Assembly: GCA_015063545.1 (NCBI GenBank)
Contig: SVTX01000006.1
Span: 1 to 62,187 of the forward strand
DNA length: 62,187 nucleotides
Direction: 5' to 3'
Source: Oscillospiraceae bacterium
GTDB lineage: Bacteria; Bacillota; Clostridia; Oscillospirales; CAG-272
Part shown: in pieces, positions 38,927-39,596 of the stretch
Layout of the letters: every line of letters begins with the position of its first letter
How positions within the stretch are numbered: the stretch's first letter is position 1
Translations under genes and position numbers: made by a program
The notes under the pieces: model-generated
Told to the model about the DNA's origin: nothing
Databases searched by the model: none
What the model saw: the letters and a program-made list of their open reading frames with translations, nothing else

Positions 38927-39210
38927 ACCCTTCATCCGCACCACTCAAAAACGCACCCATCAAAGCAATATATGCCAATGGGAGGGGCGGGACTTGAACT
39001 TTCACATAAAATTCTGCGAATTTTATGTGATGGGCTCTGTGTTACCCTTCGTCCGCACCACTCAAAAACGCACCCATCAAAGCAATATATGCCAATGGGA
39101 GGCGGGACTTGAACTTTCATATAAAATTCTGCGAATTTTATGTGATGGGCTCTGTGTTATCCTTCATCCGCACCACTCAAAAACGCACCCATTTGGGTGC
39201 GTTTGAGTGG
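38927..39210 (-). repeat. Tandem ~115-base units derived from the 3' side of tRNA-Leu(CAG)
   Basis: Two near-identical units (38930-39046, 39047-39161) and a partial third lie directly downstream of the tRNA on its own strand. Each carries the reverse complement of the tRNA tail (CCTTCATCCGCACCACT on the plus strand), a copy of the T-arm sequence GGGACTTGAAC, and a 13-base hairpin TCACATAAAATTC / GAATTTTATGTGA (39002-39030 and 39117-39145). The units differ by a two-base indel and a few substitutions. Confidence 0.85.
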
Positions 39211-39222
39211 TGCGGATGAAGG
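39161..39222 (-). other. Long imperfect hairpin covering the 3' end of tRNA-Leu(CAG)
   Basis: The 21-base arm CCTTCATCCGCACCACTCAAA and an eight-base CGCACCCA pair with the mirror sequence ending in the tRNA acceptor, with only a two-A bulge. The arm includes the tRNA CCA, discriminator and acceptor strand, so in RNA it would compete with the acceptor stem. Confidence 0.8.
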
Positions 39223-39294
39223 GACTTGAACCCATATGAAATTGCTTTCACTGGAACCTGAATCCAGCGCGTCTGCCAATTCCGCCACATCCGC
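39208..39294 (-). tRNA. tRNA-Leu(CAG)
   Basis: The minus strand reads GCGGATG...CATCCGC plus discriminator A and an encoded CCA. The anticodon arm is CTGGA-TTCAGGT-TCCAG with anticodon CAG. A long variable arm and GGGTTCAAGTCCC T-arm are present. It reads CUG codons. Preceded on the same transcript by tRNA-Leu(GAG). Confidence 0.95.
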
Positions 39295-39304
39295 ATATTA
39301 AATT

Positions 39305-39450
39305 TGTGCCAAAACTAAAGGGAGAGACTGTGTCATCGTTTTACGGGACTTGAACTTTTACACAAAACTGTGTTTTGTGTGACGGTTTATCAAGTTACCC
39401 ATTTGTTGTACCAAAACTAAAGGGAGAGACACAGTCTCTCCCTTTAGTTT
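39305..39450 (-). repeat. Spacer between the two tRNA-Leu genes with T-arm copy and terminator-arm copies
   Basis: CCAAAACTAAAGGGAGAGAC occurs at about 39309 and 39411, and its reverse complement at 39434-39453. The 39411/39434 pair is a perfect 20-base stem with loop ACA that abuts the CCA of tRNA-Leu(GAG). Between them lie another T-arm copy (GGGACTTGAAC, 39344-39354) and a nine-base hairpin ACACAAAAC / GTTTTGTGT (39360-39380). No T-run follows the long stem. Confidence 0.8.
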
Positions 39451-39534
39451 TGGTGCGAGAAACGGGACTTGAACCCGTACGGTGTAACCACACGCCCCTC
39501 AAACGTGCGCGTCTGCCAGTTCCGCCACTCTCGC
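39451..39534 (-). tRNA. tRNA-Leu(GAG)
   Basis: The minus strand reads GCGAGAG at the 5' end and ends TTCTCGC-A-CCA. The anticodon arm CACGT-TTGAGGG-GCGTG gives anticodon GAG, for CUC/CUU codons. A long variable arm and CGGGTTCAAGTCCCG T-arm are present. Driven by the promoter at 39568-39596. Confidence 0.95.
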
Positions 39535-39567
39535 ATGAAACACTGTGTTGCTTTGGACAACACGGAT

Positions 39568-39596
39568 ATTATACATCACAAAGTTTGTTTTGTCAA
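39568..39596 (-). promoter_or_regulatory. Sigma-A promoter of the tRNA-Leu pair
   Basis: On the minus strand, TTGACA (39591-39596) and TATAAT (39568-39573) have a 17-base spacer and lie ~35 bases before tRNA-Leu(GAG). Confidence 0.9.

Follow-up and report, generated by a model that had tools for sequence, protein, structure and literature searches.

In a group of bacteria of the ruminant gut, many tRNA genes have, behind them, hairpin-rich repeats made from forward and backward copies of the end of the gene in question. These repeats constitute a tailor-made family, of which we found no description in the titles and abstracts, on elements as well as on mechanisms, that were searched and that covered few subscription papers. 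The units of this family, about 100-165 bp long, non-coding and tandemly repeatable, adjoin tRNA and tmRNA genes at the 3' end. A unit starts with S1, which comprises the T-arm and the tail of the functional tRNA, and continues with a terminator hairpin; with A, an antisense copy of the same tRNA tail that begins with TGG and extends into an altered antisense T-arm; with an inner hairpin; with S2, a sense copy of the T-arm; and with a decayed tail, after which the next unit may follow. The units share this anatomy, match the gene that they adjoin, lie downstream of it, contain near-perfect palindromes, vary in presence and copy number, and have inner modules in common. As to their origin, we tentatively favour the view that they are lineage-specific small inverted triplications of tRNA and tmRNA ends, generated via fold-back synthesis, with the inner modules spreading between genes, and we think that the units have no RNA function of their own.

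In the window, that is, the whole 62,187-nt stretch of DNA that was analysed, the units are found at two tRNA-Leu genes on the minus strand (Table 1). The sequence GTTCAAGTCCC occurs five times in the window, always on the minus strand, with 0.02 occurrences expected from base composition: it is present in both tRNA-Leu genes and at 39345-39355, 39104-39114 and 38989-38999, which confirms the three T-arm copies outside the tRNAs that had been noticed in the original prediction. The strong hairpin said to precede each of these copies is indeed there, in a near-perfect form, and the long hairpins that include the CCA ends are real as well, being represented by the perfect 20-bp core after tRNA-Leu(GAG) and, at tRNA-Leu(CAG), by the arms 39161-39181/39202-39222 together with the terminator stem. 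The claim that tRNA tail sequence follows each T-arm copy holds in part: a sense tail is present after S2 but is decayed, and the clear tail copy is antisense and precedes the hairpin. In the window, 19 pairs of inverted repeats measure 14 nt or more, and six of these belong to this locus. The minus-strand fold of a 524-nt stretch of it, a check proposed together with the original prediction, yields z = -11.2 against 100 shuffles.

Table 1. Elements of the tRNA-Leu locus, in the direction of transcription (window coordinates)
Feature	Coordinates	Strand	Basis
Promoter-like site TTGACA-17-TATAAT, 5' of tRNA-Leu(GAG)	39568..39596	-	12/12 consensus positions; consensus match only
tRNA-Leu(GAG); 3' end is S1 of unit 1	39451..39534	-	ARAGORN; Rfam RF00005, 44.7 bits
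Unit 1 terminator-like hairpin, perfect 20-bp stem including CCA end	39411..39453	-	inverted-repeat search
Unit 1 A: decayed antisense copy of tRNA-Leu(GAG) 3' end and T-arm	39381..39413	-	antisense tail 12/16; alignment
Unit 1 inner hairpin, perfect 9-bp stem	39360..39380	-	
Unit 1 S2: sense T-arm copy	39344..39355	-	
Perfect 26-nt inverted copy of the left arm of terminator hairpin 1 (39428-39453)	39309..39334	-	inverted-repeat search
tRNA-Leu(CAG); 3' end is S1 of unit 2	39208..39294	-	ARAGORN; Rfam 52.9 bits
Unit 2 terminator-like hairpin	39176..39207	-	
Unit 2 A: antisense tRNA-Leu(CAG) end, tail 15/16, T-arm altered	39146..39175	-	alignment
Unit 2 inner hairpin	39117..39145	-	inverted-repeat search
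Unit 2 S2	39103..39114	-	
Unit 3: sense tail (decayed) with terminator arm, followed by antisense copy of the tail	39044..39102	-	direct repeats D1, D2, 97-98%
Unit 3 inner hairpin, perfect 13-bp stem	39002..39030	-	inverted-repeat search
Unit 3 S2	38988..38999	-	
Truncated last repeat: decayed tail, terminator arm, antisense tail	38927..38985	-	D1, 98% to copy at 39044

The two leucine tRNAs had been placed on one short transcript. Their co-transcription is likely, judging from the promoter-like site upstream of tRNA-Leu(GAG) and from the promoter scan, which yielded no promoter between the two genes and three promoter-like sites in all, as compared to 2.5 expected in shuffles. The terminator arm after tRNA-Leu(GAG) can pair locally or with its inverted copy just 5' of tRNA-Leu(CAG); the latter pairing spans 93 nt and is adopted in the minimum-energy fold, so that the alternative pairing could possibly serve as a read-through switch before tRNA-Leu(CAG). 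Beyond the two tRNAs, Rfam returned nothing above the cut-off at the locus, the looser matches being generic hairpins. A scan of the window for a sense-antisense-sense order of exact 10-mers gave no match, owing to the altered T-loop of A. A tRNA-Leu(GAG) identical to that of the window, with an antisense tail that matches at 16 of 16 positions and with two tandem units, is present at another locus of this genome (G000:C64). Directly upstream of this intact gene, at about 1050-1210 of the locus (L011) on the minus strand, lies a decayed tRNA-Leu(GAG), the D-loop of which contains an insert with a hairpin.

There is strong support, well beyond the two leucine tRNAs, for the original prediction of one architecture at different tRNAs, and the notion of tail copying was right. 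In the genome of the window (G000), the architecture was recognized by eye, each time with the gene's own sequence, at Lys, Met, Glu, Arg, Gln, Ser, Leu, Thr and Trp tRNAs, and two units are located downstream of the tmRNA gene. Counts were made on tRNAs that end in CCA and have no other tRNA within 80 nt. Among the 24 such testable tRNAs of G000, the antisense tail matches at 12 or more of 16 positions in 11 and S2 matches at 12 or more of 14 positions in 13, whereas the non-cognate controls on the same flanks gave 2/646 and 23/646, respectively; the sense-antisense-sense order, scored by either threshold, is present at 15 of the 24, the Thr-GGT match being of another kind. The corresponding counts for A and S2 are 8/24 and 11/24 in G009 (non-cognate, 1/561 and 11/561), 10/15 and 6/15 in G002 (3/286 and 9/286), and 0/29 and 7/29 in G018, a member of another genus (6/1054 and 18/1054). 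With flanks pooled from tRNAs ending in CCA, with no tRNA within 110 nt, a flank of at least 120 nt and duplicates removed, a score of at least 24 was reached by S2 in 61 of 147 cognate versus 6 of 746 non-cognate comparisons and by A in 25/147 versus 2/746, related loci being included among the 147 flanks, which are, therefore, not independent. The polarity is equally clear: for 70 tRNAs with 260 nt free of tRNAs on both sides, S2 was found downstream of 36 and upstream of none, and A downstream of 16 and upstream of one, the single exception being a locus of a Micrarchaeota genome (L183). In 391 kb of G011, the flank complementarity outside the hairpin proper amounts, for the five tRNA-adjoining hairpins, to 16, 12, 11, 10 and 4 of 18 positions, as against at most 11 of 18 for the 95 other intergenic hairpins. 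As a separate observation, pseudo-tRNA-Thr copies are arranged in tandem downstream of tRNA-Thr(GGT) in G000 (L016), G009 (L076) and G004 (L106), in numbers that differ between G004 and G009; they have a hairpin inserted in the region of the anticodon stem, an intact 3' half and a terminator.

The copies deviate from the parent genes in a regular manner. Among 72 S2 copies, 39 have an insertion at tRNA position 56/57 (22 A, 14 T and three others), with insertions in no more than four copies at any other position; the unusual GGTCC of the tRNA-Tyr appears in S2 as GGTCC-T-GAATC. Alignments reach the final A of CCA in 22 of the 72 copies, and a displaced S2 with its tail makes up, at many loci, the pattern of a regenerated 3' end. 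The A segments (59 aligned) extend from position 76 to position 49, with insertions clustering at 62/61, 61/60 and 57/56. In most units read, the A:S2 helix is broken at the T-loop centre, either by an S2 bulge or by changes in A, whereas in Gln-TTG of G002 and a few others it is nearly continuous at this point; in the folds, the inserted A or T at 56/57 bulges out of the helix. The two tmRNA units of G000 illustrate both solutions: in unit 1, the antisense T-loop is unchanged and S2 contains an inserted T; in unit 2, the antisense T-loop is altered and S2 is unchanged. In an RNA energy model, A, the inner hairpin and S2 together form an imperfect hairpin, the centre of which is unpaired and some bases of which bulge out, a shape that resembles integron attC sites by analogy only. 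The folded units contain one inner hairpin or a three-way junction with two, the latter fold being common, by eye, to 13 units. As a single strand, one unit period is predicted to fold into a dumbbell, with the tRNA end as its body and the terminator and the inner hairpin as its caps. A dif-like nature of the inner hairpin was considered and dropped, the resemblance to the dif consensus being limited to some hairpins of G000; so was a kink-turn reading of the A:S2 loop, which was an idea only.

Are these palindromes maintained as RNA or as DNA? The terminators of tRNAs without S2 contain 26 G-T and one A-C among 881 pairs, as is typical of structures that act as RNA, whereas those adjoining units contain seven G-T and four A-C among 1068 pairs (Fisher test, p = 1.2e-4 for the G-T rate and p = 0.019 for the G-T:A-C ratio). 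The inner hairpins, with seven G-T and four A-C among 595 pairs (and 11 other mismatches), likewise show no clear G-U excess. The scarcity of G-T in the unit-adjoining terminators and inner hairpins points to palindromes that are kept perfect at the DNA level. The differences between A and its own tRNA (47 G-U-type and 36 A-C-type in 43 segments, p = 0.06) are not decisive. They fall into two opposite parts, with 21 G-U-type versus two A-C-type in the 5' T-stem and 10 versus 22 in the acceptor; these opposite biases may be due to base composition, although the T-stem bias would also fit RNA pairing.

The units differ even between close relatives. In G004 and G009, the flanks of which are about 90% identical, the tRNA-His genes differ in that G004 has an extra unit between the CCA and a terminator that directly adjoins the CCA in G009, a difference that may be a gain or a loss; within G004, the antisense copy is worse in the tRNA-adjoining unit than in the next unit outward. 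Similarly, Leu-CAA (G011 versus G009) and Thr-GGT (G004 versus G009) differ by one unit or repeat. Tyr of G004 versus G009 was rejected as a clean empty site, since it shows a truncated unit instead. At four loci (L178, L051, L162 and L022), the displaced tail is followed by a terminator unlike the first. Paired changes are seen in inner hairpins of relatives, e.g. at Leu-CAG (G000 and G002) and Arg-ACG (G009 and G011). Furthermore, the inner modules of different tRNAs are related. In a comparison from which loci L174 and L176 were excluded, the highest scores of two-hairpin modules are 83.5 within G018 (Glu and Met) and 73 across genera (Leu of G035 versus Val of G009), with a mean of 18.1 for shuffled sequences. 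BLAST of 14 two-hairpin modules, the only kind so searched, against 844 kb (391 kb of G018, 391 kb of G011 and the window) returned a single 23-nt match, in a G011 stretch without tRNA.

Two other kinds of hairpin-bearing sequences were seen in passing. In L113 (G004), L324 (G011) and L098 (G009), a second family of small inserts, with the order TTACG, hairpin, CCGAGT, hairpin, starts right after GAATC or GATTC in displaced S2 copies. Another palindromic array lies behind tRNA terminators and consists of repeated GTGAAATA-hairpin followed by repeated TATTTCAC-hairpin, or of the same layout with other 8-mers (L024 and L025 of G000, L090 of G009, L057 of G008, and L112 and L170 of G018), in some cases after a terminator with a GTCTACC-type loop.

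The units were seen in five genomes of the window's genus (G000, G002, G004, G009 and G011); for the other seven genomes of the genus, single tRNA-Leu loci, or none, were looked at. In the family, the units occur patchily, and relatives with plain terminators exist (by eye, e.g. L047, L050 and L053), but not all relatives are of this kind: a search of related genomes, again one of the checks first proposed, showed that the architecture recurs in independent assemblies, contrary to the refuting outcomes named with the original prediction. A generic pattern, which detects only part of the variants and misses G018, gave 18 matches in a sample of 118 genomes of the family, of which 10 are real by eye (eight in G011, the tmRNA of G000, and one in G534) and the remaining eight are neighbouring tRNA pairs. 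The strict pattern, applied to genome contigs, retrieved 15 stretches. Eleven of these, from Clostridia or Oscillospiraceae metagenome-assembled genomes (MAGs), several from ruminants, have the architecture by eye, with two (L174 and L176) repeating G009 sequences. Three are tRNA-Lys(TTT) loci of Lachnospiraceae (L179, L180 and L188), where a shorter array of two or three tandem units of antisense T-arm followed by sense T-arm and tail, likewise with an extra A or T in the T-loop copies, is located between the tRNA and the terminator. The last one, the tRNA-Ala of Micrarchaeota (L183), has a 3'-end copy about 115 nt further on, with an extra T in the T-loop and a possible antisense sequence between the gene and the displaced copy. 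The short-gap pattern was found in none of the 391 genomes of a class sample, and the tight pattern had no match in viral contigs; the loose pattern retrieved at least 120 viral stretches, which we take to be dominated by chance. Exact matches to AAAGTTCAAGTCCC in G006 and G034 and a one-mismatch match on G000:C12 are not at tRNAs and were attributed to chance; two one-mismatch matches on G000:C69 lie in loci without a tRNA.

What enzymes could be involved? G011, which is 98% complete and rich in units, encodes a single tyrosine recombinase of the PF00589 family, as compared to three each in G009 and G000; its size, 351 aa, recurs in seven of the eight genus genomes searched, with G000 as the exception. 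Y1 transposases were found in G002 and G018, with none in G000, G009 or G011. Reverse transcriptase gave no match in G011, G009 and G002 (the latter 68% complete) and one in G000; the idea that the antisense tail is a primer-binding site for reverse transcription was, accordingly, dropped. Matches to SbcD were found in none of the 12 genomes of the genus (completeness 68-98%) and in 23 of 24 other family members, most of the latter matches being weak and below the cut-off; altogether, 11 of 59 genomes pass the cut-off, and the others yield mostly incomplete alignments to proteins of about 380 aa. In G018, SbcD scores in full (E 2.9e-50), and S2 copies are nonetheless found at seven of 29 testable tRNAs.

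The triplication reading, which we favour, explains the tailoring to the host gene, the polarity, the perfect arms, the tandem growth and the link to tRNA and tmRNA genes without any dedicated enzyme. Small inverted triplications, with an average of 148/160/148 bp, have been described in cancer and yeast genomes, and were modelled as fold-back priming followed by a second switch (PMC13334657). For the tRNA units, birth and renewal would proceed through fold-back (template-switch) DNA synthesis that reverses at a palindrome on either side, namely at the terminator and at the T-arm, the latter having a TTCGAA-type centre. As read in the units, the turns are at the terminator palindrome and beside the T-arm, and the inner turn holds the shared hairpin module. 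Tandem units might then grow or shrink through recombination between S copies, and the T-arm sequence that tRNA genes have in common could allow inner modules to pass from one gene to another by recombination. The history would be mixed, with triplication first and spread of inner modules through T-arm recombination later. Plasmids of E. coli are reported to lose small inverted triplications and to keep them upon deletion of sbcC, sbcD or rep (PMC13334657). Two circumstances may help the tRNA units to persist, namely that the tRNA is left intact and that the genus seems to be devoid of SbcD-type hairpin nucleases. Since the SbcD gap is confined to one clade, it represents one event at most. 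Counted against triplication are the coexistence of SbcD and S2 copies in G018, the inferior antisense copy in the tRNA-proximal unit of the G004 His gene, the G-U-type bias in the 5' T-stem part of A, and the homology of inner modules across tRNAs, and even genera, which implies that not all units are independent accidents. The lack of the 16-nt antisense tail in G018 indicates that full triplication is not universal. Fold-back copying also leaves the base inserted at 56/57 and the shared modules unexplained, and simple triplication does not predict the different terminators at four loci.

The inserted base, the shared modules and the different terminators are better accounted for by mobile cassettes that enter the T-loop of tRNA and tmRNA genes via a folded single-stranded, attC-like site, a scheme we consider somewhat doubtful, in which an Xer-type or other host recombinase would join the folded site to the T-arm and a new tail and terminator would displace the old ones. 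The fixed A or T that bulges from the A:S2 helix, the modules dispersed across tRNAs and genera with hardly any trace elsewhere in the 844 kb, the displaced tails followed by a different terminator and the extra His unit of G004 would all fit; so would the facts that tRNA and tmRNA genes are the usual targets of integrases (PMC4383910) and that attC sites possess extrahelical bases and an unpaired central spacer (PMC2727003). However, no dedicated enzyme was seen, the only PF00589 gene of G011 being of a size common in the genus, and the match of tail and antisense tail to each host gene is left unexplained. There is also no R box of the GTTRRRY type in the units, and the tight pattern is absent from the viral contigs scanned. 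The mobile element or integration scars envisaged in the original prediction gain from the variation between close relatives and from the inner modules common to different tRNAs, and lose from the lack of notable coding sequences in the units and from the enzyme inventory of G011. A bolder version, to which we assign a low likelihood, would have gene-less, tRNA-parasitic DNA modules that move only between tRNA and tmRNA genes, clothed in forward and backward copies of each gene's end; their folded single-stranded dumbbell would recombine at the T-loop centre, between TTC and RA, leaving the extra A or T and relying solely on host functions (replication fork, Xer).

It seems distinctly unlikely that the units are a selected RNA element, in which A would pair with the tRNA 3' strand or with S2 to form a read-through RNA switch that spoils or spares the tRNA and thereby tunes its supply or the read-through to a downstream tRNA, such as tRNA-Leu(CAG). 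The paired changes in inner hairpins, the three-way junction common to 13 units, the lack of a detected promoter for tRNA-Leu(CAG) combined with the 26-nt alternative partner of the preceding terminator, the position of the Lachnospiraceae arrays ahead of the terminator and the G-U-type bias in one part of A speak for it. But the element hairpins, unlike ordinary terminators, show no clear G-U excess, and A and S2 lie behind the terminator in the genus units read, findings that also leave the earlier suggestion of a tRNA-mimic RNA for processing enzymes unsupported; moreover, presence varies between close relatives and among tRNAs of one genome, and no Rfam family other than tRNA exceeds the cut-off. 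Worn remnants of integrative elements or prophages, most of which were lost after displacing the tRNA end, are quite improbable: integration into tDNA is typically marked by displaced fragments of the tail (PMC4383910), but the antisense copy, the turn at the terminator and the shared hairpin modules would remain unaccounted for, and independent integration with near-total loss would be needed at about 15 of 24 (G000) and 14 of 24 (G009) testable tRNA genes and at the tmRNA gene. Finally, an assembly artefact from collapsed repeats is hardly credible, even though all 15 titled records of the strict scan are MAGs, because the architecture is the same, with sequences that differ, in numerous assemblies obtained from various animals and projects.

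Whatever their origin, the units make it harder to annotate tRNA genes, displaced fragments of tRNAs and integration sites in gut genomes, and they may reveal in what way errors in DNA copying, or small mobile pieces, add to tRNA genes. If triplications recur at one kind of gene in a wild lineage, the units would document, in nature, the fold-back errors of bacterial replication and would offer a test of the role of SbcCD; if the modules move, they would represent a new, gene-less route of DNA spread with flanks copied from the target.

Among the known systems, small inverted triplications (DUP-TRP/INV-DUP, ODIRA-type) resemble the tRNA units in the order of duplicate, inverted and duplicate segments, in apparent turns at inverted repeats, in the proposed template-switch origin, in instability and in a possible role of SbcCD (PMC13334657, PMC11790251). 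The tRNA units differ from them in that the copied piece is only about 25-30 bp and is, at the loci read, a tRNA or tmRNA end, in the number of loci involved, in tandem repetition, in the shared inner modules and in the fixed extra base. Template-switch mutations, too, are described as making reverse-complement copies, correcting hairpin arms, and creating and keeping perfect hairpins; the abstract of that paper concerns single events in RNA genes, rather than a repeat family of tRNA ends (PMC8794818). Integrative elements of tRNA and tmRNA genes have the same targets, regenerate the 3' end and displace the tail (PMC4383910), whereas the tRNA units have no genes, include an antisense copy of the target and, at about 100-165 bp, are too short to contain an integrase, with a single PF00589 gene in the entire G011 genome. 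With integron attC sites and cassette arrays, the units share an imperfect hairpin with an unpaired spacer and bulged bases, a variable terminal hairpin and the arrangement in tandem arrays (PMC2727003). Unlike integrons, they carry no gene cassettes, their target is the T-loop of tRNA, and the PF00589 search, with its one gene in G011, identified no integron integrase. The integron R-box consensus is GTTRRRY; the copied core of the tRNA units is GTTC-RANY. CRISPR arrays, with their conserved repeats, unique spacers of foreign origin and cas genes, differ in turn, inasmuch as the repeats of the units are derived from tRNA and the places of the spacers are taken by the terminator and the hairpins. 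REP/RAYT and other bacterial palindromes are short and dispersed between genes, and in this respect the units are alike; however, G000, G009 and G011 have no Y1 transposase, and the flanks of each tRNA unit are tailored to the tRNA gene that it adjoins.
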